Source of the DNA: Lachnospiraceae bacterium | Lineage (GTDB): Bacteria > Bacillota > Clostridia > Lachnospirales > Lachnospiraceae | NCBI GenBank assembly: GCA_022776305.1 | Contig: JALFIB010000123.1 | Location: 1-42,298, forward strand | DNA: 42,298 nt | Direction of reading: 5' to 3' | Shown here: positions 1 to 24,984 of the stretch, piece by piece | How the letters are laid out: the number at the start of each line of letters is the position of its first letter | How positions within the stretch are numbered: position 1 is the first letter of the stretch | Program-made: the position numbers and the translations under genes | The notes under the pieces: model-generated | Told to the model about the DNA's origin: nothing | What the model saw: only the letters and a program-made list of their open reading frames with translations | Databases searched by the model: none

Positions 1-933
1 GATAACAATAAGTTGTCTGAATTTGTTGACACAAGCGATGAGTGGATCAAAGAGCGCACCGGTGTGGCCAGACGCCATATTGTGGCGGATGAGACCACTT
101 CATTCATGGCCGCTGAGGCGGCAAAAAAAGCTGTTGAGGATGCGGATCTTACGCCGGATCAGATAGACCTGATCCTCGTCTCAACGATTTCTTCGGACGT
201 TATCTTGCCCTGTACGGCATGTGAAGTCCAGCGCATTCTTGGAGCAGTAAATGCTACATGCTTCGATCTGAATGCAGCATGTACTGGTTTTGTGCTTGCT
301 TACAATACGGCAAACGCCTACATACAGAGCGGTGTATATAAAAATGCCCTGGTCATAGGAAGTGAGAGCCTCTCTAATCTTACCAACTGGAAAGACAGGG
401 GGACTTGTATCTTGTTTGGTGATGGGGCGGGAGCAGTTGTCCTCACTGCTGAAGAGAAAGCATCCTATGTACCTGCCACTCATTCAGAGGGGGCAAAGGG
501 AGAAGCGCTCACGTTAAAAAGCAGGCATGACAGCAATGGGATCACAAAGGAAATTGAACCGAATCGGATGATGGACGCAGAATACTTTATGCAGATGGAC
601 GGTCAGGCAGTTTTCAAATTTGCTGTAAAAAAAGTACCGGAAGCCATTTTAGAGGTACTTGATAAAAACAATATAAAAAAAGAAGATATTGACTGTTATC
701 TTTTGCATCAGGCCAACCGCCGTATTGTGGAAGCCGTAGCCAAAAGAATGGGGGAACCCATTGAAAAATTTCCCATGAACCTGCAGGAATATGGGAACAC
801 ATCATCGGCAAGTATTCCGATACTTTTGGATGAATTAAGCCGGGAAGGAAAATTAAAAAGCGGTAAGCATATTGTGCTGGCAGGATTCGGAGCAGGACTT
901 ACCTGGGGAGCTTCCATCATGGATTGGAAGTAA
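1..933 (+). CDS. fabH: 3-oxoacyl-ACP synthase III (FabH), 5' end missing
   Basis: Condenses an acyl-CoA primer with malonyl-ACP to start each round of type II fatty-acid synthesis in the cytoplasm. The frame is open from base 1 and no start codon is seen, so about 15 N-terminal residues lie outside the window; 310 residues remain of the usual 320-330. The thiolase-fold catalytic triad is visible: Cys in NAACTGF (fragment residue 94), His in LLHQANRR (236) and Asn in YGNTSS (266). The FGDGAGA glycine-rich segment typical of the family is also present. It is the first gene seen of an operon that runs to about 10.9 kb; the operon promoter must lie upstream of the window. A TTG at 13 is in frame but is internal, because the residues before it also fit the family. 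Identification is secure; primer preference (straight or branched) cannot be read from the sequence. Confidence 0.96.
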   Translation, partial: DNNKLSEFVDTSDEWIKERTGVARRHIVADETTSFMAAEAAKKAVEDADLTPDQIDLILVSTISSDVILPCTACEVQRILGAVNATCFDLNAACTGFVLAYNTANAYIQSGVYKNALVIGSESLSNLTNWKDRGTCILFGDGAGAVVLTAEEKASYVPATHSEGAKGEALTLKSRHDSNGITKEIEPNRMMDAEYFMQMDGQAVFKFAVKKVPEAILEVLDKNNIKKEDIDCYLLHQANRRIVEAVAKRMGEPIEKFPMNLQEYGNTSSASIPILLDELSREGKLKSGKHIVLAGFGAGLTWGASIMDWK

Positions 934-964: not shown

Positions 965-1002
965 ATAAAATGAAAAGCTTAAAAAGAAAAAGGAGAAAAA
1001 AG

Positions 1003-1227
1003 ATGTTAGAGAGAATAAAAGAAATGGTTGCAGAAAATCTTGGAGCAGACGTAGAAACACTGACAGAGGCTACTTCCTTTAAAGAAGACCTTGGAGCTGA
1101 TTCTCTGGATCTCTTCGAACTTGTTATGGCACTGGAAGAGGAATATGAAGTTGAGATCCCCACAGAGGATCTTGAAAAGATCGTGACCATCGGCGATGTG
1201 ATCGCATACATCGAGGAACATAAATAA
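1003..1227 (+). CDS. acpP: Acyl carrier protein
   Basis: Small acidic carrier that holds growing acyl chains on a 4'-phosphopantetheine arm for every enzyme of the operon. The product is 74 residues, the usual length. The attachment site is Ser34 in GADSLD, followed by the acidic helix II ([15 protein letters not shown]) that docks with partner enzymes. An in-frame ATG at 970 would add eleven very basic residues ([10 protein letters not shown]) unlike any ACP; the ATG at 1003 has AGGAGA at 991-996 at correct spacing, so 1003 is chosen. It sits between fabH and fabK, as in many Firmicutes fab clusters. Activation needs a holo-ACP synthase that is not in this window. Confidence 0.96.
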
Positions 1228-1293: not shown

Positions 1294-2232
1294 ATGAAGA
1301 CAGAAGTAACAGAGCTGTTGGGAATTGAATATCCGATTATTCAGGGCGGTATGGCCTGGGTCGCTGAGCATCATCTGGCGGCTGGAGTATCGGAAGCTGG
1401 CGGATTAGGACTGATCGCGGCTGCCAGCGCGCCTGCACAGTGGGTGAGAGATCAGATCCACGCTGCAAGAAAATTAACAGATAAGCCTTTTGGTGTAAAT
1501 ATCATGCTGATGAGTCCTGAAGCAGACGAGGTGGCGAAAGTCATAGTAGAAGAAGGCGTAAAGGTTGTAACTACCGGAGCCGGAAGCCCGGAAAAATACA
1601 TGAAAATGTGGAAAGAGGCAGGTGTGAAGGTGATCCCTGTGGTTGCTTCCGTTGCACTTGCAAAGCGTATGGAGCGGTGCGGTGCAGATGCCGTGGTAGC
1701 AGAAGGCTGTGAAGCAGGGGGCCATATCGGTGAGAGCACAACTATGACACTTGTGCCTCAGGTTGTGGATGCAGTAAAAATCCCGGTGATCGCTGCAGGT
1801 GGAATTGCAGACGGAAGAGGAATCGCAGCCGCATTTATGCTGGGGGCAAGAGGTGTACAGATGGGTACCCATTTTGTTGTAACAGATGAGTCCCAAGTAC
1901 ACGAGAATTACAAAGACAGGATCATCAAAGCAAAAGATATTGATACACGTGTGACCGGAAGGACCACCGGACATCCTGTCCGTGCTCTTCGCAATGAAAT
2001 GACGAGAAAATACATTGAATTGGAAAAGAAAGGCGCAGGTTTTGAAGAACTGGAGAAGCTCACCCTTGGAGGCCTTCGAAAGGCAGTTGTTGACGGAGAT
2101 GTGGCAAATGGCAGTGTAATGTCCGGTCAGATCGCAGGACTGGTAAAGGAAAGAATGTCTTGTCAGGCGCTGATCCAAAAACTTGTATCTGAGACAGACC
2201 AATTGATGAAAGGCATGGGCTTCTATGAATAA
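1294..2232 (+). CDS. fabK: Enoyl-ACP reductase II (FabK), FMN-dependent
   Basis: Reduces trans-2-enoyl-ACP to acyl-ACP, the last step of each elongation cycle, using FMN and NAD(P)H in a TIM barrel of the nitronate-monooxygenase superfamily. The 312-residue protein has the usual FabK length. It shows the N-terminal IIQGGMAWVAEHHLAAGVS segment, GGLGLI (36-41), the conserved His144 in AGGHIG, and the FMN-phosphate glycine segments IAAGGIADGRG and LGARGVQMGT. No FabI or FabL lies in the window. An in-frame stop just upstream (1288-1290) fixes the start at 1294, although the Shine-Dalgarno sequence (AAAGG near 1276-1280) is weak and distant. Its end overlaps fabD by eight bases, suggesting translational coupling. 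A second member of the superfamily is encoded at 9290, so this one is called FabK because of its length, motifs and place in the cluster. Confidence 0.93.
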   Translation: MKTEVTELLGIEYPIIQGGMAWVAEHHLAAGVSEAGGLGLIAAASAPAQWVRDQIHAARKLTDKPFGVNIMLMSPEADEVAKVIVEEGVKVVTTGAGSPEKYMKMWKEAGVKVIPVVASVALAKRMERCGADAVVAEGCEAGGHIGESTTMTLVPQVVDAVKIPVIAAGGIADGRGIAAAFMLGARGVQMGTHFVVTDESQVHENYKDRIIKAKDIDTRVTGRTTGHPVRALRNEMTRKYIELEKKGAGFEELEKLTLGGLRKAVVDGDVANGSVMSGQIAGLVKERMSCQALIQKLVSETDQLMKGMGFYE

Positions 2233-3145
2233 GATCGCATTTATTTATCCGGGTCAAGGTGCACAGAAAGCAGGGATGGGCGCTGATTTTTATGAAAAGA
2301 GTGAGAAGTCCCGTGCCCTTTATGAAAAAGCAAGGGATATGCTTGACCTCGATTTAAAAGCTCTCTGTTTTGAAGAAAATGATAAGCTGGATCTCACAGA
2401 ATATACACAGGCAGCCCTTGTTACTACTTGCCTTGCCATGACCGGTGTGGTGATGGAAAAAGGGCTGAAGCCTGATATTACCGCAGGCCTTAGCCTTGGG
2501 GAGTATGCGGCAATCTCCGCAGCAGGCGGGATGGATCCTCTCGATGCCATTCGACTTGTAAGAAAAAGAGGTATCTTGATGGCATCTACCGTACCATCAG
2601 GCGTGGGAGCCATGTGTGCCGTAATGGCGATGGACAGCGACAAAATTGAAGAAGTGATAAAAGACATTCCCGATGTGACCATTGCCAATTATAACTGTCC
2701 GGGACAGATCGTCCTTACAGGGAAAAAAGAAGGGGTGGAGACTGCAGCTGAGAATTTGAAGGCGGCTGGGGCAAAACGCACGGTAATGCTCAATGTGAGC
2801 GGCCCTTTCCATTCCCCCCTGTTGAAACCGGCAGGAGACGAATTGGCCAAAGCGCTTGACGAAGTAGTTTTGCATCCTCTATCTGTTCCCTATGTGACAA
2901 ATGTAGATGCAAGTATTGTTGAGGAAGTTGATAAGACGAAAGATCTGCTAAGACGCCAAGTGTATTCTCCGGTACGCTGGATGCAGAGCATGGAGCGTAT
3001 GATCGAAGAAGGCGTAGATACTTTTCTGGAGATAGGGCCGGGGAAGACTCTGGCAGGATTTATGAGAAAGATCAACAGGGATGTGAAAGTATATAATATC
3101 GCCACATGGGAAGATGTGGAGAAAGTAACAGGTGAATTATGCTAG
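2225..3145 (+). CDS. fabD: Malonyl-CoA:ACP transacylase
   Basis: Transfers malonyl from CoA to ACP to supply the extender unit. The 306 residues match the family length. The oxyanion-forming GQGAQ is at residues 10-14, the nucleophile Ser90 in GLSLGEY, and the catalytic His196 in GPFHSPLL. The C-terminal segment ending in the [10 protein letters not shown] motif is intact. The ATG lies within the end of fabK and the stop overlaps fabG by seven bases, so fabK, fabD and fabG form a tightly coupled block. No anomalies seen. Confidence 0.96.
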
Positions 3146-3879
3146 ATGGAAAAATTGCTGTAGTGACAGGTGCATCCAGAGGAATCGGGAGTGCCATTGC
3201 ACGAAAGCTTGCAGATGAAGGAGCCACTGTAGTGATCAATTACAACGGGTCAGAAGAGCGGGCTAACGCAGTAAAGGCGGAAATTGAAGGGAAAGGCCAG
3301 AAGGCAGTGGTCCGCAAGTGTGACGTGTCGGATTTTGCATCATGTGAAACCTTTATCCAAGGCGTGATCAAGGAGTTTGGCAGGATCGATATCCTTGTAA
3401 ACAATGCAGGGATCACAAGGGACGGGCTCCTGATGAAAATGTCAGAAGAAGATTTTGACCAGGTATTAGATACGAACCTGAAAGGTGCATTTCATACCAT
3501 ACGTTTTGCTTCAAGGCAGATGCTTCGCCAAAAGTCAGGAAGGATCATCAATATGGCCTCCGTGGTAGGCGTCAGCGGAAATGCAGGGCAGGCAAATTAT
3601 GCGGCATCGAAAGCAGGTGTGATCGGTCTGACAAAAGCCACAGCAAAAGAACTGGCTTCCAGAGGTATCACAGTCAATGCCATTGCACCTGGATTTATTG
3701 AGACGGAAATGACGGCAGTGCTTTCCGATAAAGTGAAAGAAGCCACCGCTGCACAGATTCCGCTGGGCACTTTCGGGCAGCCGGAGGATGTGGCAAATGC
3801 AGTTGCATTTCTGGCATCTGACGAGGCCAGATATATTACAGGACAGGTGCTTCACGTAGATGGAGGGCTTGTCTGCTAA
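3139..3879 (+). CDS. fabG: 3-oxoacyl-ACP reductase
   Basis: NADPH-dependent short-chain dehydrogenase that reduces 3-oxoacyl-ACP to 3-hydroxyacyl-ACP, the first reduction of the cycle. It has 246 residues, typical of FabG. The cofactor motif TGASRGIG is at residues 10-17, NNAG at 88-91, and the catalytic Ser141, Tyr154 and Lys158 (YAASK) are all present. The C-terminal [11 protein letters not shown] segment matches the family. It overlaps fabD by seven bases and is followed by fabF after 16 bases. Many short-chain dehydrogenases look alike; operon position makes FabG the firm choice. Confidence 0.96.
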
Positions 3880-3895
3880 GGTAAAGGAGCAGGAA

Positions 3896-5134
3896 ATGAA
3901 AAGAAGAGTAGTGGTTACCGGCCTTGGAGCAGTCACTCCTATAGGAAACACTGTGGAGGAATTCTGGGCAGGAATTAAAACAGGAAAGGTGGGCATTGGC
4001 CCGATTACAAAATTTGACACCACAGAATATAAAGTGAAGCTGGCAGCAGAAGTAAAAGATTTTTCTGCGAAAGAGCGCATGGATTTTAAATCGGCAAAAA
4101 GAATGGAGCCTTTTGCACAGTATGCGGTAGCCGCTGCGAAGGAAGCTTTTGCGGACGCGGGGATCTCCATGGAACAGGAAGACCCGTATCGCGTAGGAGT
4201 GACAGTGGGATCCGGTATCGGAAGTTTGCAGGTAGTTGAACGGGAATACGAAAAGATCAGGACGAAAGGCCCTTCCAGAGTAAATCCTTTAATGGTGCCC
4301 CTTATGATCTCCAATATGGCAGCCGGAAATATCTCTATCCAGCTGGGGCTGAAAGGGAAATGTACCAATGTGGTAACAGCATGCGCTTCAGGAACCCATT
4401 GTATCGGTGACGCATTTCGCGCCATCCAGTACGGTGATGCAGATGTCATGTTGGCAGGGGGAGCAGAGAGCTGTATCTGTCCCACAGGGGTAGCAGGATT
4501 TACCAGCCTGACTGCACTGTCAACGTCGGAGGATCCGCTGCGGGCATCCATTCCTTTTGATAAAGACAGGGATGGATTTGTCCTTGGGGAGGGTGCTGGC
4601 ATTGTGGTGCTGGAAGAGCTGGAGCATGCAAAGGCCCGCGGAGCTAAAATTTATGCGGAACTGGTGGGATACGGCGCCACAGGAGATGCATACCACATCA
4701 CCTCTCCCGCAGAAGACGGAAGCGGAGCAGCCAAAGCGATGTCACTGGCTCTGGAAGAGGCTGGAGTTTCACCTGAACAGGTAGATTATGTCAATGCACA
4801 CGGTACGAGCACTCACCACAATGACCTCTTTGAGACAAAAGCCATTAAGCTTGCTCTTGGCGAAGCAGCAAAGAACGTTGTGGTAAACTCCACAAAATCC
4901 ATGATCGGCCATCTTTTGGGAGCGGCAGGCGGCGTGGAATTCATTGTCTGCGTAAAATCCATTCAGGATAATTTCATCCATCAGACAGTAGGAACCCAGA
5001 CAGCGGATGAAGAGTGCGATCTGAACTATGCGATCGGAGCGCCGGTAGAGAAAAAAGTGGATTATGTGCTAACAAATTCCCTTGGATTTGGTGGACATAA
5101 TGCAACTCTTCTTGTAAAACGGTACGAGGATTAG
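3896..5134 (+). CDS. fabF: 3-oxoacyl-ACP synthase II
   Basis: Elongating condensing enzyme that adds two carbons from malonyl-ACP to acyl-ACP. From the ATG at 3896 it is 412 residues, the normal FabF length. The catalytic Cys163 lies in TACASGTH, His302 in [11 protein letters not shown] and His339 in [13 protein letters not shown]. The longest frame begins at 3860 inside fabG, but AAAGGAG at 3883-3889 points to 3896 and the protein then starts with the family-typical [10 protein letters not shown]. It is the only FabF/FabB-type synthase seen here, so it would also have to extend any unsaturated intermediates. Confidence 0.96.
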
Positions 5135-5150
5135 AAAGGACGTTCACGGT

Positions 5151-5621
5151 ATGGATTTTGAACAGGTATTAAAAGTGATAGAAGCTGTGTCAAAATCAGA
5201 ATTGACACGTTTCAAATATGAGGAGAATGGAGTCAAGCTCCAGCTCTCAAAAGAAAAAGAGCAGGTGCGTATCCTTCAGGGGGAACCTTGTGTACAGCCA
5301 ATCAATAACGGTGAAAGAACTGTAGAGGCTGTGACGGCAGACGTAAAAAAACAAGAGAAGGAGAGGGTATCTGGGGACGGGGAGACAGGAAATTTCGTAA
5401 AATCTCCTCTTGTAGGTATGTTTTACGCAGCTCCCTCAGAAGACGCCCAGCCTTTTGTAAAGGTTGGAGATACTGTTAAGAAAGGCCAGACTCTTGCAAT
5501 CGTAGAGGCAATGAAGCTGATGAATGAGATTGAGAGTGAATTTGATGGTGAGATTGCAGAAATTCTGGTAGAAAACGGACAGCCTGTAGAATACGGACAG
5601 CCGCTGTTCCGTATTTGTTAA
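5151..5621 (+). CDS. accB: Biotin carboxyl carrier protein of acetyl-CoA carboxylase
   Basis: Carries the carboxylated biotin between biotin carboxylase and carboxyltransferase. The 156-residue protein has a short N-terminal domain (1-40), a charged flexible linker (about 50-80) and a C-terminal biotinyl domain (about 82-156). The biotinylated Lys122 is in EAMKLMN, the universal attachment motif. It begins 16 bases after fabF. The 99-base gap after it, before fabZ, is one of the longer gaps inside the operon. Biotin attachment requires a BirA-type ligase encoded elsewhere. Confidence 0.95.
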
Positions 5622-5720
5622 AAAATCATGGGATTTCCATCGTAATAATATTTGTTTTTTGTAACTATTTGGTTTTCGTAACTTGGAAACAATATGGACT
5701 TTAACGAAAAAGGAGGCAAT

Positions 5721-6155
5721 ATGGAAGGCAGACATTTGACAATCAATGAGATTAAAGAAATCATTCCCCATCGTCATCCGTTCCTTTTGATCGATTATAT
5801 AGAAGATTACCAGCCGGGGGAATTTGCGGTGGGATATAAATGCGTAACGTACCGCGAGGACTTTTTTGCGGGACATTTTCCGCAGGAACCGGTCATGCCA
5901 GGCGTATTGACGGTAGAAGCCCTTGCTCAGGTGGGTGCTGTGGCGATTTTGAGTATGGAAGAATACAAAGGAAAAACTGCGTATTTTGCAGGTATTAACA
6001 AGTGCAAATTCAAAGGCAAGATCGTCCCGGGTGACAAGGTACGTCTGGAAACCAGAATCATAAAGAAAAAAGGGCCGATCGGTGTAGGGGAAGCAGTTGC
6101 AAGTGTTGACGGCAAAACAGTGGTCAGCGCAGAACTGACTTTTGCCATCGGCTAG
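5721..6155 (+). CDS. fabZ: 3-hydroxyacyl-ACP dehydratase
   Basis: Hot-dog fold enzyme that dehydrates 3-hydroxyacyl-ACP to trans-2-enoyl-ACP. From the ATG at 5721 the product is 144 residues, as expected. The catalytic pair is visible: His52 in [11 protein letters not shown] and Glu66 in LTVEALAQ, and the N-terminal [12 protein letters not shown] segment is intact. An in-frame ATG at 5694 would add nine residues, but AAAAAGGAGG immediately before 5721 and family alignment favour the later start. It is the only dehydratase in the operon: no FabA or FabM is present. Whether it can also isomerise the double bond cannot be told from sequence. Confidence 0.95.
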
Positions 6156-6166
6156 AGGGCAGGACC

Positions 6167-7516
6167 ATGATTAAAAAAGTTTTGATCGCAAACCGGGGGG
6201 AAATCGCTGTGCGCATTATTCGCGCCTGCAGGGAACTTGGAATCGAGACCGTGGCGGTCTACTCGGAAGCGGATAGAGATGCCCTGCACACCAAGCTGGC
6301 AGATGAAGCGATCTGTGTCGGCCCGGCCCCCTCATCGGAGAGCTATCTCAGTATGGACCGGATTATAAGCGCTACCATTGTGACAGGTGCAGACGCCATT
6401 CATCCGGGATTTGGATTTTTGTCAGAGAACAGTAAATTTGCAGAATTGTGTGAAAAATGCAACATTACTTTCATCGGGCCTAATTCAAAAGTGATTGCCA
6501 GTCTGGGAAACAAGCAGGAGGCGAGAAATACCATGATCCGGGCAGGAGTGCCGGTGATTCCGGGCAGCAATGAAGCTGTCTATGACGCTGCCACAGGTGC
6601 CTCTGTTGCAAAAAAGATTGGTTATCCGGTAATCGTGAAAGCAGCCCTTGGAGGCGGGGGAAAAGGAATGCGCGTGGCAAATACACCGGAAGAGTTTGAA
6701 CAAAGTTTCCTTACAGCCCAAAAAGAGACACAGATGGCTTTCGGTGACAATACCATGTACATTGAACATTTTGTGCAGCATCCAAGACACATCGAGTTCC
6801 AGATTCTGGCTGATGCTTATGGAAATGTGGTACATCTGGGAGAGCGGGACTGCTCTATCCAGAGGAACCACCAGAAAATGATCGAGGAATCTCCCTCTGC
6901 AGCCCTTGATGAAGAGCTTCGCAGAAAAATGGGAGATGCTGCAGTAAAAGCTGCAAAGGCTGCCGGATACGTAAATGCCGGTACCATCGAATTTTTGCTG
7001 GAAAAAACAGGCGATTTTTATTTTATGGAAATGAATACACGGATTCAGGTGGAACATCCGGTGACTGAATGGGTGACAGGCATTGACTTGATCAAAGAAC
7101 AGATCCGGATTGCTTCCGGGCAGAGACTGGCATTTACCCAGAAGGATATCCATATGGAAGGCCATGCCATTGAATGCCGTATTAATGCGGAAAATCCGGA
7201 AAAGGGATTCCGCCCATCTCCGGGCACTATCACAGATTTGTACCTCCCGGGAGGAAAGGGGATCCGGATCGACACCGCGATCTATACGGGCTACACAATT
7301 CCTCCTTATTATGATTCCATGATTGCAAAATTGATCGTATGGGCCAAGAACAGGAAGGAAGCCATACGTAAAATGCAGAGTGCCCTGGGGGAAGTCATTA
7401 TTGAAGGTGTAGATACGAATATTAATTATCAGTATGAGATCCTGTCTGACCCTGACTTTTTGTCAGGGAATATCGACATCAATTATATAGAAGATAGGGA
7501 AAACAGGAACAGATAG
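6167..7516 (+). CDS. accC: Biotin carboxylase of acetyl-CoA carboxylase
   Basis: ATP-grasp enzyme that carboxylates the biotin of AccB using bicarbonate. The 449 residues match AccC exactly. The N-terminal KVLIANRGEIAVRIIRA segment is present, followed by the ATP-binding glycine loop GGGGKGM (162-168) and the catalytic region MEMNTRIQVEHPVTE, whose Arg falls at residue 292. The C-terminal biotin-carboxylase domain follows (GHAIECRINAE, then FRPSPG). It starts 11 bases after fabZ and ends 19 bases before accDA, so the carboxylase subunits are made together. Confidence 0.97.
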   Translation: MIKKVLIANRGEIAVRIIRACRELGIETVAVYSEADRDALHTKLADEAICVGPAPSSESYLSMDRIISATIVTGADAIHPGFGFLSENSKFAELCEKCNITFIGPNSKVIASLGNKQEARNTMIRAGVPVIPGSNEAVYDAATGASVAKKIGYPVIVKAALGGGGKGMRVANTPEEFEQSFLTAQKETQMAFGDNTMYIEHFVQHPRHIEFQILADAYGNVVHLGERDCSIQRNHQKMIEESPSAALDEELRRKMGDAAVKAAKAAGYVNAGTIEFLLEKTGDFYFMEMNTRIQVEHPVTEWVTGIDLIKEQIRIASGQRLAFTQKDIHMEGHAIECRINAENPEKGFRPSPGTITDLYLPGGKGIRIDTAIYTGYTIPPYYDSMIAKLIVWAKNRKEAIRKMQSALGEVIIEGVDTNINYQYEILSDPDFLSGNIDINYIEDRENRNR

Positions 7517-7535: not shown

Positions 7536-9278
7536 ATGAATTTGGATAATGTTTTTAAAAAGACAAGGCAAATGATGGGAAAGAATTATATTTCCCTGAA
7601 TCCTCTGAAGCCGGAGGTTCCCAGAGGACTTCTGCGTAAATGTAATAAGTGCGGCGGGGCGATCATAGCGGAGGATGTGAAAAAATCCTATTATATCTGT
7701 CCGAAATGCGGCGGCTATTTCCGGGTGCATGCCTACCGGCGTATTGAGATGCTGGCAGATGAAGGTACCTTTGAGGAATGGGACAAGGGACTCTCCACGA
7801 AGAACCCTCTGGAATATAAAGGGTACATGGAAAAAATCGATGACCTGAAGGAAAAAACGAAGCTGGATGAGGCTATCGTAACAGGAAAAGCAAAAATTGA
7901 CGGTCATGAAGCAGTCCTTGGAGTCTGTGACGGCCGTTTCCTGATGGCCAGTATGGGAAGTGTTGTGGGAGAGAAGATAGCCAGAGCTTTTGAACGCGCA
8001 ACGCAGGAAAAGCTTCCTGTGATCTTATTTGCCTGTTCCGGAGGAGCCAGAATGCAGGAGGGGATCGTTTCTCTGATGCAGATGGCAAAAACCTCAGCAG
8101 CCGTAAAGAGGCACAGTGATGCCGGCCTTTTGTATATCAGTGTATTGACAGACCCCACAACAGGAGGTGTGACAGCAAGTTTTGCAATGCTTGGGGATAT
8201 TATCCTTGCGGAGCCCAATGCACTCATAGGATTTGCCGGCCCCCGCGTCATTGAGCAGACCATCGGACAGAAGCTGCCCAAAGGATTCCAGAGGTCTGAG
8301 TTTTTGCTGGAACATGGATTTGTAGATGCCATCGTTGCCAGAGAAGAACAAAAAGAAACCATATCCAAGATCCTCCGTCTCCATGAGGGCGCAGAGGAAG
8401 GACAAAAGGAAAAGTTATTTTCAGATAAAAAGGATTTAGGTGACTTTGACGATAACAGGATATCCGTGGAACCGTCTTTCAGACAAAAGGAAAAGGATCT
8501 CACTCCATGGGAACGGGTTCAGATTTCCAGAGAAAAAACACGTCCTACAGGAACAGAATATCTGGAGCGCCTTTTTGATGATTTCACAGAATTCCACGGG
8601 GACCGTTATTTTGCCGATGACAAGGCTATTGTGGGAGGCGTTGCAAGCTTTCAGGGAATTCCAGTAACAGTCATTGCCCAGGCAAAAGGAAAAAACACAA
8701 AAGAAAATATTGAGCGCAATTTCGGCATGCCTTCTCCTGAGGGATACCGGAAAGCCTTGCGCCTTATGAAAGAAGCAGAAAAATTCCACCGGCCTGTAAT
8801 CTGCTTTGTGGATACTCCGGGAGCATTTTGCGGATTGGAAGCAGAAGAGCGGGGACAAGGCGAGGCAATCGCAAGAAACCTTTACGAAATGTCAGGACTT
8901 TCAGTCCCCATCCTTTCTATTGTGATAGGGGAAGGGGGAAGCGGAGGAGCCCTTGCCATGGCCACGGCAGATGAAGTCTGGATGCTGGAAAACTCTGTTT
9001 ATTCCATTCTTTCTCCGGAAGGTTTTGCAACCATCCTCTGGAAAGACAGCAGCAAAGCAAAAGAGGCGGCAGGGGTTATGAAGCTCACTGCCTCAGATCT
9101 TCAAAAGCTGGGGATTGTAGAGTATGTATTTCCGGAGCCGGACCATTACACGCCGGATACCATGGATGAAATGGTGGACATGCTGACAAAAAGCATCGTC
9201 CGTTTTTTAAGCGTTTATGGATCCATGGAAAAAGAAGAACTGCTGGAACACCGCTATAGAAGATTTCGTGAAATGTAG
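7536..9278 (+). CDS. accDA: Acetyl-CoA carboxyltransferase, fused beta-alpha subunits (AccD-AccA)
   Basis: Transfers the carboxyl group from biotin to acetyl-CoA to give malonyl-CoA. In many bacteria the beta (AccD) and alpha (AccA) subunits are separate; here one 580-residue frame holds both. Residues 1 to about 285 are AccD-like, with the four-Cys zinc ribbon (Cys36, Cys39, Cys55, Cys58) and the crotonase-fold segments [11 protein letters not shown] and [16 protein letters not shown] charged linker of about 35 residues follows. Residues from about 323 are AccA-like, starting at [11 protein letters not shown], with [20 protein letters not shown] and [12 protein letters not shown]. No stop or frameshift separates the halves. 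The alpha half is near 258 residues, shorter than the enterobacterial subunit. This is a fusion rather than a sequencing join, because both halves are complete and in one frame. Confidence 0.93.
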
Positions 9279-9289
9279 GAGCAGGAAGT

Positions 9290-10381
9290 ATGTTGATGAA
9301 ACCGTTGAAAATTGGAGATATTGAGGCAAGGCTGCCCATTATCCAGGGCGGCATGGGGATTGGCATCAGCCTTGGAGGGCTTGCAGGCGCAGTGGCGAAA
9401 GAAGGCGGTGTTGGGATCATATCTACCGCACAGATCGGGTTTCGTGAGGAAGATTTTGACCAGAATCCGAAGGCTGCTAATCTGCGGGCTTTGAAAAAGG
9501 AGTATGAAAAGGCAAGATCCATTGCGCCCCATGGCATAATCGGATTTAACATCATGGTTGCTACACGGTGCTATGAGGAATACGTAAAAGCTGCTGTAGA
9601 TGCAGGAGCTGACCTGATCATCTCCGGAGCAGGATTGCCGACGGATCTTCCGCAGATCACAAATGGAAGCCGTGTCAAGATCGCGCCTATCGTCTCTACA
9701 GAAAAATCGGCCAAGGTAATATTGAAATATTGGGATAAAAAATACCATAGGGTTCCTGACCTTGTGGTAGTGGAAGGCCCGAAAGCGGGAGGCCATCTGG
9801 GCTTTACCAGAGAACAGCTTTTATCCTACGGTATCGGCGGGCAGGAAAAGGATGCAAGGTCCGGGCAAGCTCTGTACGATGAGGAAGTAAAGTATATTCT
9901 GGCTGCTGTAAAAGCTTATGAAGAAAAATATGAAAAGAAGATCCCGGTGGTGCTTGCAGGAGGGATTGACAGCAAAGAAGAGGCTGTCAACGCCCTGTCA
10001 CTGGGGGCAGATGGTATACAAGTAGCTTCAAGATTTGTCACTACCGAAGAATGTGATGCGGACATCCGATATAAAGAAATGTATCTGAAAGCAGAAAAAG
10101 AAGATATTGTTATTGTGAAAAGCCCGGTGGGAATGCCGGGACGGGCGATTTTAAATCCCTTTATGAAAAAAGTTATGGCAGGAGAAAAAATCCCACACAG
10201 TGCGTGCCATTGCTGTCTGCACAAGTGCAGTCCTACAGAAATACCGTATTGTATTACGGATGCTTTGATCCACGCAGCAAAAGGAGAGGTGGATGAAGCA
10301 CTTCTTTTTTGCGGCGCCAATGCATATAAAGCAAAAAAAATTGAAAAAGTAAAAGAAGTGATTGATTCTTTGGTATGTTAA
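9290..10381 (+). CDS. FabK/nitronate-monooxygenase-superfamily flavoenzyme with C-terminal Cys cluster (FabX-like candidate)
   Basis: A 363-residue FMN TIM-barrel protein. Visible family motifs are LPIIQGGMGIGIS (15-27), GGVGIIST (39-46), the conserved His169 in AGGHLG, and the FMN-phosphate segments VLAGGIDS and LGADGIQVASRF. Unlike the shorter fabK product in the same operon, it has a C-terminal extension with Cys306, Cys308, Cys309, Cys313 and Cys321. The spacing C-x2-C-x3-C-x7-C (306, 309, 313, 321) suits an iron-sulfur cluster. Automated annotation would probably say nitronate monooxygenase. The length, Cys cluster and operon position recall FabX of Helicobacter pylori, an FMN and 4Fe-4S enzyme that introduces the double bond for unsaturated fatty acids; this assignment is an inference. 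It starts 11 bases after accDA with AGGAG at 9277-9281, so it is cotranscribed. Confidence 0.8.
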   Translation: MLMKPLKIGDIEARLPIIQGGMGIGISLGGLAGAVAKEGGVGIISTAQIGFREEDFDQNPKAANLRALKKEYEKARSIAPHGIIGFNIMVATRCYEEYVKAAVDAGADLIISGAGLPTDLPQITNGSRVKIAPIVSTEKSAKVILKYWDKKYHRVPDLVVVEGPKAGGHLGFTREQLLSYGIGGQEKDARSGQALYDEEVKYILAAVKAYEEKYEKKIPVVLAGGIDSKEEAVNALSLGADGIQVASRFVTTEECDADIRYKEMYLKAEKEDIVIVKSPVGMPGRAILNPFMKKVMAGEKIPHSACHCCLHKCSPTEIPYCITDALIHAAKGEVDEALLFCGANAYKAKKIEKVKEVIDSLVC

Positions 10382-10450
10382 AGGTTAGAATAGAGGAAAA
10401 GAAAGAATAGCGTTGCAGGTAGAAAATACGGAAAGGACAGCAAAAGACAG

Positions 10451-10909
10451 ATGAGTGATACGTACAGGACCATCAACGATGTGCTGGTGGAATTGATCAA
10501 TAATATATGGGAACTTGAAGGAAATGCAGTGATCACAGACGAATTCAAGGATATCACCAACAACGATATGCATGTCATTGAGGCAATTGGTATCGGAAAA
10601 GGTAAAAATATGTCAGCGGTTGCGAAAAAGCTGAACATTACACTGAGCTCTCTCACCACAGCCGTCAACAGTCTTGTACGCAAAGCGTATGTAGAGCGCC
10701 AAAGGAGCAGCGAGGACCGTCGCATCGTAGAGATCAGGCTGACAGAAAAGGGGGAGAAAGCGTATCTCCACCATGAAGAATACCATAACCAGATGATTAA
10801 AGCCGCTATTTCGGAGATGAGTCCTGAGGAGATCCCCATACTGGTCAAAATGCTGAAAAACCTAAAAGTGTTTTTCGAAACCTACGGTCAAAATAAAGAT
10901 GGTAATTGA
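10451..10909 (+). CDS. MarR-family transcriptional regulator (FabT-like candidate)
   Basis: A 152-residue winged-helix regulator. The helix-turn-helix is seen in MSAVAKKLNITLSSLTTAVN (about 56-75), followed by the wing with EDRRIVEIRLTEKG. Flanking N- and C-terminal helices form the usual MarR dimer interface. It is the last gene of the fatty-acid operon, 69 bases after the flavoenzyme gene. FabT, the MarR repressor of Firmicutes fab genes, usually sits at or near the head of the cluster; here the place is the tail, which would give feedback on its own transcription if the same promoter is used. The fab promoter is outside the window, so no operator could be inspected. The Shine-Dalgarno sequence (AAAGGA near 10432) is rather distant. 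Confidence 0.85.
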   Translation: MSDTYRTINDVLVELINNIWELEGNAVITDEFKDITNNDMHVIEAIGIGKGKNMSAVAKKLNITLSSLTTAVNSLVRKAYVERQRSSEDRRIVEIRLTEKGEKAYLHHEEYHNQMIKAAISEMSPEEIPILVKMLKNLKVFFETYGQNKDGN

Positions 10910-10963
10910 TCTAGAAAAGACGAGAAAACATATATAATAAAAATCTTATTTCTGACAGAAAGA

Positions 10964-11020
10964 AGTGTGCTGCCCATGCCCCCCGGACAAATCCGGTGAT
11001 TGGGTATGCACACTTTTTTT
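10964..11020 (+). terminator. Intrinsic terminator of the fatty-acid operon
   Basis: Outer arms AGTGTGC (10964-10970) and GCACACT (11008-11014) pair perfectly. Inner pairing continues through TGCCCA with TGGGTA and CCGGA with TCCGG. A run of T (11014-11020) follows on the plus strand. It lies between the convergent fab operon and aroA; the minus-strand reading has only a broken T-rich run, so it may also help end tyrA-aroA transcription, but less well. Confidence 0.9.
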
Positions 11021-11038
11021 ACGTTATAGGAGAGTGTT

Positions 11039-12316
11039 TCATTGTTCCAATGCGTGTAGGTCTTTGTAGAAATCAGGATAACTGATCTTGACACAGTCAT
11101 CGTCACGGATATCCATTTCCCCCTCACAGGCCAGAGCTGCTACGGCAAAGCTCATGGCAATACGATGGTCTTTTTTTGTATCGATCACGGCTCCGTGGAG
11201 CGGTTTACCGCCGCGGATGACCATGCCATCCTTTGTAGCCTGTACATCACAGCCGATCCGGGAAAGGTTTTCTGTCATTACGGCGATCCGGTCAGACTCC
11301 TTTACTTTCAGCTCGGCTGCGTCACGGATCACGGTAGTGCCTTGGGCGAACGCGCCCAGCACTGCAATGACAGGAAGCTCGTCGATCAAAGTGGGGATAA
11401 TTTCCCCCTCGATGGTGGCCCCTTTTAAATTGCTGCTTCGGATCAGGATATCCGCACAGGGTTCTGCCCCGGAACGGTTTTCGTTCACAAAGGTGATATC
11501 AGCCCCCATGGCTTTGCACACACGGAGCATGCCGTCGCGGGTGGGGTTGATGCCCACGTTGCGCAGCAGCACTTCAGAATTTGGAACCAGAAGGGCAGCT
11601 GCGATGAAATATGCGGCGGAAGAAATATCTCCCGGCACATTTACTTTCTGTCCGATAAGTCGTGGATTTGGAACGATGGAAGCTGTTGTTCCCTCTGTCC
11701 GTACATCTGCGCCAAAATACCGGAGCATCAGTTCAGAATGGTTTCGGGATATGACAGGCTCTGTCACCTTCGTAATTCCCTCTGCGTATAACCCGGCAAG
11801 CAGCACACAGGATTTCACCTGGGCAGATGCTACCGGTGATTCATAATGGATCCCCTGAAGGTTTCCGCCTCCGATCTCAAGAGGGGCACATCCATTTTGG
11901 CGGATAGAAGATATATCTGCATGCATCATAGTGAGAGGGGTCATGATACGTTTCATGGGCCGCTTCTGAATGGAAGCGTCCCCGGTGATAACAGAGCGAA
12001 ACGGCTGCCCAGCCAGAATACCTGACATAAGGCGGACTGTGGTCCCACTATTGCCGGCATCAAGAATGGTACCCGGCGCTTTCAGGCCGTGGAGGCCTTT
12101 CCCGTAAATTTTTACATGGGTGCCTTCCTGCACAATATCAATGCCCATCTGACGGAAACAAGAGATCGTGGAAAGGCAGTCGGCACCGGTGAGAAAGTTA
12201 TCGACTTCTGTCAATCCTTCAGAAAGGGCACCGAACATCACACTGCGGTGGGAGATGGATTTATCTCCCGGAACGGAAAGCTCGCCTTTTAAAGGCGCTG
12301 TATATTTTAATATCAT
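11039..12316 (-). CDS. aroA: 3-phosphoshikimate 1-carboxyvinyltransferase (EPSP synthase)
   Basis: Joins shikimate-3-phosphate and phosphoenolpyruvate in the sixth step of the shikimate pathway, which leads to chorismate. The 425-residue protein has the N-terminal substrate motif VPGDKSISHRS with Lys19, Ser20 and Arg24, the central LDAGNSGTTVRLM segment, and the C-terminal DHRIAMSFAVAAL motif. Length is normal. On the minus strand the ATG is preceded by AAAGGAG. It follows tyrA after 17 bases, so chorismate supply and tyrosine synthesis share a transcript. The LDAGNSGT stretch has the Gly common to glyphosate-sensitive and insensitive forms; class was not resolved. Confidence 0.96.
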   Translation of the reverse strand: MILKYTAPLKGELSVPGDKSISHRSVMFGALSEGLTEVDNFLTGADCLSTISCFRQMGIDIVQEGTHVKIYGKGLHGLKAPGTILDAGNSGTTVRLMSGILAGQPFRSVITGDASIQKRPMKRIMTPLTMMHADISSIRQNGCAPLEIGGGNLQGIHYESPVASAQVKSCVLLAGLYAEGITKVTEPVISRNHSELMLRYFGADVRTEGTTASIVPNPRLIGQKVNVPGDISSAAYFIAAALLVPNSEVLLRNVGINPTRDGMLRVCKAMGADITFVNENRSGAEPCADILIRSSNLKGATIEGEIIPTLIDELPVIAVLGAFAQGTTVIRDAAELKVKESDRIAVMTENLSRIGCDVQATKDGMVIRGGKPLHGAVIDTKKDHRIAMSFAVAALACEGEMDIRDDDCVKISYPDFYKDLHALEQ

Positions 12317-24870: not shown

Positions 24871-24984
24871 ATAGCGAAGTAGGAAATTGCGCGTTAAGTT
24901 GTCAGCGGCTGGGGAGTCGCCCTGAACCGAAAAGCCATTCAGACCGGGATGCGCTTGCGATGCTTTTTCCGCACCCGTTGCTAC
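24871..24984 (+). ncRNA. THF (tetrahydrofolate) riboswitch aptamer
   Basis: The leader of the folate transporter gene carries the characteristic 5' block AAATTGCGCGTTAAGT (24884-24899), and the 3' block CCGCACCCGTTGCTAC (24969-24984). The closing stem can form between TAGC (24872-24875) and GCTA (24980-24983), and internal stems fit the GC-rich centre (for example GGCGA-type pairing around 24906-24921). These resemble the THF riboswitch family known upstream of folT in Firmicutes. Boundaries are by eye. Ligand and fold need covariance-model confirmation. Confidence 0.82.

Follow-up and report, generated by a model that had tools for sequence, protein, structure and literature searches.

The window, a stretch of 42,298 nucleotides from a Lachnospiraceae bacterium, carries at the end of a fatty acid synthesis operon the gene for a predicted flavoenzyme that, judged by its sequence, is a member of the FabX family and not a second FabK. 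With a probability of roughly three in four, this gene encodes a clostridial FabX that would introduce the cis double bond into unsaturated fatty acids, and its product is the best candidate for the clostridial double-bond step among the enzymes considered here; we infer its FMN and cluster content, substrate and reaction. It was in Clostridium that an anaerobic pathway of unsaturated fatty acid synthesis was originally proposed. FabZ of C. acetobutylicum cannot isomerise, and the double-bond enzyme of this species was termed 'novel and unknown' (PMC2700279, 2009); the C. acetobutylicum fab cluster, as given in that report, names no FabX. Clostridia have since been described as lacking the known double-bond enzymes (PMC6362236, 2019). 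The FabX family itself is known, and although a clostridial FabX is not named in the open-licence literature that was searched, the assignment may already exist in print elsewhere.

The fabX-like reading frame starts with ATG 11 bases downstream of the stop codon of an accDA-like gene, and is the last enzyme gene in a same-strand fab run that is closed by a gene for a MarR-family regulator. The run comprises the following features, in which names without a scan come from sequence recognition:

1..933, + strand: fabH-like gene, truncated by the window start
970..1227, + strand: acpP-like gene
1294..2232, + strand: fabK, enoyl-ACP reductase II (NCBIfam TIGR03151)
2225..3145, + strand: fabD-like gene
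3139..3879, + strand: fabG-like gene
3860..5134, + strand: fabF-like gene, start uncertain
5151..5621, + strand: accB-like gene
5694..6155, + strand: fabZ, FabA-domain protein (Pfam scan)
6167..7516, + strand: accC-like gene
7536..9278, + strand: fused accD-accA-like gene
9290..10381, + strand: fabX-like gene; product of 363 aa, an FMN barrel followed by a four-Cys domain at the C-terminus
10451..10909, + strand: MarR-family regulator (Pfam scan)

The Pfam scan in the window covered the FabX-like protein, FabK, FabZ and MarR, and the NCBIfam scan covered the FabX-like protein and FabK. The initial annotation had described fabK together with a second FMN-barrel protein of 363 residues, and both the reading frame and fabK (by TIGR03151) are borne out; it had also stated that FabA and a second FabZ are missing from the operon, where the sole FabA-domain protein is indeed fabZ. 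A consensus scan of 9000-11100 placed a single promoter-like site on the plus strand, at 10362-10391, and detected no terminator-like site on that strand; the 2 promoter-like sites observed in this region are fewer than expected by chance (mean 3.1 in shuffles). No gene for an electron carrier or acceptor was seen within the fab operon. Elsewhere in the window lies a THF riboswitch aptamer (24873-24982; RF01831, 56.7 bits).

Several comparisons place the protein in the FabX family. A phmmer search of PDB sequences matched residues 3-361 to four distinct chains with an E-value of 2.6e-66 (about 3e-66); these chains, deposited as 2-nitropropane dioxygenase, were recognised as FabX of Helicobacter pylori (HpFabX) by the residue numbers in PMC8626469, which fit them. 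The best FabK (enoyl-ACP reductase) chain in the same search reached 1.1e-22. The homology with HpFabX (PDB 7e1q and others; PMC8626469) is full-length, at 41% identity over 340 aligned positions, and identity to the FabK of the window is 30%. Against TIGR03151, which has a cut-off of 453.1 bits, the operon fabK scores 488.8 and the FabX-like protein 117.9, below the cut-off. The whole-protein tree sets 44 FabX rows, with HpFabX and the window protein among them, on one side of a branch that has an SH-aLRT of 98. The same FabX branch was recovered from the barrel alone, with the Cys domain removed, both in a quick tree (support 100) and in a careful tree leaving out one divergent row, N_L148 (99/99, and 100% of 200 bootstrap trees). 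A phylogeny had been suggested in the initial annotation, and in these trees the protein groups with HpFabX, apart from FabK; its proposal of a FabX-like identity is thus upheld by the PDB search, the trees and the residues that separate FabX from FabK. That Helicobacter acquired its FabX from clostridia was considered and set aside: the quick whole-protein tree nests HpFabX, but clostridial monophyly without HpFabX is acceptable (p-AU 0.555).

A shorter FabX-related family (315-327 aa) forms a separate branch adjoining FabX in the tree. Its members have the motif C-x2-C-x3-C-x4-C and the FabX-type Ser and Phe but lack the R164 insert, and fab genes were not recognised in the surroundings of the five loci:

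L133, 7536-8489: short FabX relative
L134, 7185-8132: short FabX relative
L135, 6976-7923: short FabX relative
L136, 7057-8010: short FabX relative
L137, 7391-8374: short FabX relative

The window protein was compared with HpFabX at functional residues in an alignment that sets 42 FabX rows beside 5 rows of short relatives and 10 of FabK, with positions taken from PMC8626469. The corresponding features are:

9704..9745, + strand: helix and insert, codons 139-152, aligned to the HpFabX ACP-binding helix (K152, K159, R164)
9794..9796, + strand: His, codon 169, aligned to the catalytic His182 of HpFabX
10121..10123, + strand: Ser, codon 278, aligned to HpFabX Ser273
10205..10252, + strand: predicted [4Fe-4S] ligands, codons 306-321, aligned to HpFabX C300, C304, C308 and C320

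The protein has Cys residues at positions 94, 255, 306, 308, 309, 313, 321, 341 and 363. The five that had been singled out before (306, 308, 309, 313 and 321) are correct, and the conserved set among them is C306-x2-C309-x3-C313-x7-C321, invariant in 52/52 aligned rows, with C308 outside the invariant columns. As this four-Cys motif was found in all of 116 collected homologues (L008-L036, L037-L116, L138-L143 and L152; the count omits the window protein, HpFabX, the five short relatives and genes that are partial or split [G120, G172, G175, G176]), it is not a product of chance. Spacing among the 116 is x2-x3-x7 in 100, x3-x3-x7 in 14 and of other kinds in 2. Cys255, in the motif T-x-E-C-D-A, is also invariant in 52/52 rows and present in HpFabX, where it is not a cluster ligand.

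All 42 FabX rows have the four cluster Cys, Ser273 and F339, together with a Lys or Arg at K152. FabK (TIGR03151) shares the FMN barrel and the catalytic His but differs at these positions, since its rows (n=10) contain none of the four Cys, have Lys, Arg or Asn in place of Ser273 (Ser in 0/10), Ala for K152 in 7 and Met for F339 in 10. A Lys or Arg at K152 also occurs in four further NMO-family rows and is therefore not confined to FabX. At the R164 position, Lys or Arg is present in 34/42 FabX rows, His in 6 and Asn in 2, and there is a gap in all 10 FabK rows and in the short-relative rows. R164 is needed for ACP binding in HpFabX (PMC8626469).

The likeness of the window protein to HpFabX thus extends over the FMN residues, His182, Ser273, the four cluster Cys, K152, K159 and an R164-type insert. 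In detail, the FMN-residue positions N99, E175, Q240 and T243 are N, E, Q and Ser in the window protein, and the ACP-binding positions K152, K159, R160, R164 and T130 are K, K, Tyr, Lys and Thr; the insert is retained with most of its charges, R160 being the exception. The tunnel residues G127, S149, G184, I321, L325 and F339 are kept, whereas V49, G50 and Y277 are changed; Y277 is Met in the window protein and Met, Leu or Phe across the FabX rows. The loop with F74 and Y75 is missing, and a counterpart of these two residues is absent in 42/42 rows. The Cys spacing also differs, being x3-x3-x11 in HpFabX and x2-x3-x7 in the window protein, which has shorter first and last gaps. An AlphaFold2 model (me8a38cde8e28; 52 rows, window and locus proteins) has a mean pLDDT of 93.9, block means between 88 and 98 across residues 271-363, and a pTM of 0.93.

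Among the best 80 named loci of at least 570 confirmed, a set that leans to near relatives of the window protein, 54 have at least two kinds of fab or acc gene within 10 kb of FabX; the fab/acc cluster is on the same strand in 49 and on the other strand in 5, and 26 loci have none, although some of these are contig ends and two (L051 and L054) have accDA beside fabX. Many Lachnospiraceae have the gene at the operon end, Clostridium tyrobutyricum has it ahead of marR-fabH, in Clostridium saudiense it is divergent, and in three genomes from two families it lies between fabK and fabD. This repeated association of fabX with fab genes, in varied layouts, points to a functional link. A second FabX-like protein of Clostridium saudiense (L152 in genome G220; 351 aa, with the Cys motif) is encoded on a contig apart from the fab cluster. 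In same-family fab operons without fabX, a gene for an AMP-binding (PF00501) ligase follows instead (L130, 2590-4248; L131, 11489-13162), and in another genome of the family (G175; L128, 8064-9256) the fabX-like gene runs across two overlapping frames, by sequencing error or decay.

In a sample of the class, FabX was detected at 190 bits or more in 39/196 genomes, a count leaving out one genome with a split match of 127.9 bits (G102), whose protein (L138) groups with FabX in the whole-protein tree, and five genomes with the short relative. FabX was present in 37/145 genomes with FabZ vs 2/51 without (Fisher p 0.0004), and both FabX genomes that gave no FabZ match (G083, G137) are drafts in a fragmented state. 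FabX is widespread in the Clostridium acidisoli family (68/79 genomes; 5/5 in the C. acidisoli genus) and was found in 2/8 genomes of the window's own family in the class sample, in one of them split. In the window's genus, where some genomes are incomplete drafts, only 4/36 genomes carry FabX, the window included. Of the other three same-genus proteins, two share 54% and 55% identity with the window protein and the third, which is in two pieces, shares 61% and 49%; all are below the FabX of Dorea sp. D27 (70%). A same-genus genome that is 99% complete (G356) has fabK, fabZ, accDA and marR at 82%, 87%, 68% and 60% identity to the window, and its accDA is followed directly by marR, with no fabX between (L177, 1767-4059). 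The window and this genome are a natural pair with and without fabX, and it follows that fabX is dispensable across the genus while the remaining pathway is kept.

FabM, FabA and FabN would yield the product proposed here, cis-3-decenoyl-ACP, from folds unrelated to FabX; FabM belongs to the ECH family. The window genome (G000) is a draft, 89% complete with 6.4% contamination, to which the window contig is assigned. A genome search returned one FabA-domain protein in all, the operon fabZ, and no match to an ECH-family protein, a PF00487 desaturase or FabV in this draft; its NMO proteins of the FabX/FabK kind are one FabK and one FabX only. Because the genome is 89% complete, the absence of alternative enzymes is likely but not certain. 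The proposal that the gene supplies a missing step therefore stands insofar as it is the sole candidate of a known double-bond type detected in the draft. In a search of nine genomes, three had no ECH match, one had a weak match only and five had ECH proteins; desaturases were matched in 0/9. Of the 145 genomes with FabZ in the class sample, 143 encode just one FabA-domain protein, which makes additional copies of the FabA/FabN type rare. The idea that a further FabZ or a FabN forms the double bond was accordingly rejected, since only 2/145 genomes encode two such proteins, and one of these two (G061) carries FabX.

It could be argued that the protein is a second or specialised FabK-like enoyl-ACP reductase that forms no double bond, as FabX and FabK share a superfamily and the catalytic His. 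Furthermore, Fusobacterium nucleatum has both FabK and a putative FabX (C4N14_08920) with the cluster Cys kept, which has been proposed to act in unsaturated fatty acid synthesis, and overexpression of its fabX partly offsets FabK inhibition, as the inhibitor's MIC went up from 0.4 to 3.1 ug/mL (PMC11091888). This shift hints at some reductase activity of FabX. The F. nucleatum protein is reported as 50.8% identical to HpFabX, vs 41% for the window protein, and its gene is described in an operon with a hypothetical protein, whereas the window gene is in a fab operon (PMC11091888). Against a reductase, the cluster domain of HpFabX replaces the NAD(P)H-binding motif of FabK (PMC8626469), and the window protein has the Cys domain. 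In addition, a separate reductase is present in 15/15 FabX genomes tested (10 with FabV, 5 with a FabK-type enzyme). Several Blautia-type fab operons show no fabK, and ten FabX genomes were found to be without FabK, seven by PF03060 (one NMO protein of the FabX/FabK kind) and three by TIGR03151 (no match above the FabX level). FabV occurs in 10/10 of these and in 0/5 FabX genomes with FabK, that of the window included (Fisher p 0.0003; FabK was called from PF03060 score and length in four of the five). The reading that Blautia-type genomes use FabX as their only enoyl reductase was rejected, since all ten FabK-less genomes carry FabV; for the same reason FabX is not simply the enoyl reductase, and we consider a FabK-like role quite unlikely. 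FabX with FabV and without FabK is seen in Blautia-type and Butyribacter genomes (L061, L063, L065, L070, L072, L084, L106 and others), and FabK and FabV were never found together among the 15 genomes. An E. coli FabI query of 14 genomes, run without an E. coli positive control and covering nine of the ten FabK-less FabX genomes (all but that of L100), gave only hits of 21-31% identity, read as FabG-type dehydrogenases.

An enzyme of the FabX fold might also act on another acyl chain, for example on plasmalogen precursors or on the position of unsaturation, and not be the main source of unsaturated fatty acids. The patchy presence within the genus would fit this, as would the tunnel residues unlike those of HpFabX and the composition of Suipraeoptans intestinalis 68-1-5, which has an intact FabX-like reading frame (L086) and for which neither C16:1 nor C18:1 is named among the published fatty acids, with 17:1 and 19:1 as the sole features of this kind (PMC7738495). 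The absence of any further known double-bond enzyme from the draft genome and the presence of FabX in 68 of the 79 C. acidisoli family genomes speak against it, and it appears unlikely. The same observations weigh on the main reading, against which stand the patchy presence in the genus (4/36, with G356 among those without) and in the family (2/8), the absent F74/Y75, the Met and Tyr at Y277 and R160, and the MIC shift in F. nucleatum; the S. intestinalis composition also speaks against a double-bond role, with the identity of its 17:1 and 19:1 features uncertain. A link between FabX and fatty acid phenotype was sought and abandoned: reports for related genera are mixed, media may supply oleate, and the one FabX-bearing species matched goes against the reading. 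Least credible by far is a nitronate monooxygenase or detoxifying oxidase. The protein does fall in Pfam PF03060 NMO (146 bits), a family that also holds FabK, and 3bo9, a 'putative nitroalkan dioxygenase', is among the PDB matches (5.6e-19). However, the remaining chains under the names 2-nitropropane dioxygenase or nitronate monooxygenase score much worse than HpFabX (1.5e-7 or weaker; those named nitronate monooxygenase align over ~80 residues at best), the gene is in a fab operon, the protein has the cluster motif, and an oxygenase would be of little use to an anaerobe. The view in the initial annotation that this is not a nitronate detoxifier therefore agrees with the PDB search, trees and residues, as far as sequence can tell.

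If the gene is a clostridial FabX, a medium-chain acyl-ACP (about C10) would enter a tunnel lying between FMN and His169, lose a proton from C2 and be steered by the bend of this tunnel to cis-3-decenoyl-ACP, which FabF would then elongate. In HpFabX, His182 takes the C2 proton of decanoyl-ACP and the electrons pass to FMN and the cluster; the enzyme also converts trans-2 to cis-3, and O2 serves to reoxidise it (PMC8626469). Isomerisation by HpFabX needs no oxygen, and according to the same paper none but O2 has been found as acceptor (PMC8626469). The window differs from H. pylori in that O2 is presumably unavailable as acceptor and the gene lies in a fab operon with fabK. Since HpFabX needs O2 and clostridia with FabX are presumably strict anaerobes, there would have to be either another acceptor or isomerisation without net redox. 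In mode (a), saturated decanoyl-ACP would be dehydrogenated as by FabX, with electrons going to an acceptor other than O2; in mode (b), trans-2-decenoyl-ACP made by FabZ would undergo a redox-neutral isomerisation, while FMN and the cluster keep their positions. The initial annotation had put forward a FabX-type dehydrogenation with isomerisation, but mode (b) agrees with the findings no less well. Mode (b) is slightly preferred to mode (a) (about 55:45), because the hosts are presumably anaerobes, the operon has no electron carrier gene and FabZ would supply trans-2-decenoyl-ACP. In C. butyricum, a labelling study of 1961 reportedly found that label from decanoate enters delta-7 16:1 and delta-9 18:1; such a pattern would speak for mode (b). 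More tentatively, and with some doubt, the clostridial double-bond enzyme could be an O2-independent FabX, an FMN/[4Fe-4S] isomerase in the forward cycle, with the O2-using H. pylori FabX derived from an enzyme common in clostridia, including those of the gut.

These findings may also have a bearing on the use of FabX as a drug target. Four-Cys FabX-like proteins were found in records of Dorea, Blautia, Butyribacter, Dialister and [Clostridium] asparagiforme, which live in people. FabX homologues of >50% identity have been reported from 1650 species in 7 phyla, mostly anaerobes and rarely healthy human gut flora (PMC8626469), and the rarity in human-associated bacteria is repeated in PMC12079444. 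The Dorea, Blautia and other loci, as FabX-like by sequence, put this rarity in human gut bacteria in doubt, and FabX inhibitors may not spare gut commensals, because such proteins occur in these genera and the rarity count took >50% identity only. Studying the window gene would address an operon-linked candidate for an old open step in clostridial unsaturated fatty acid synthesis, and raises the chemical question of what replaces O2 in an anaerobic FabX.
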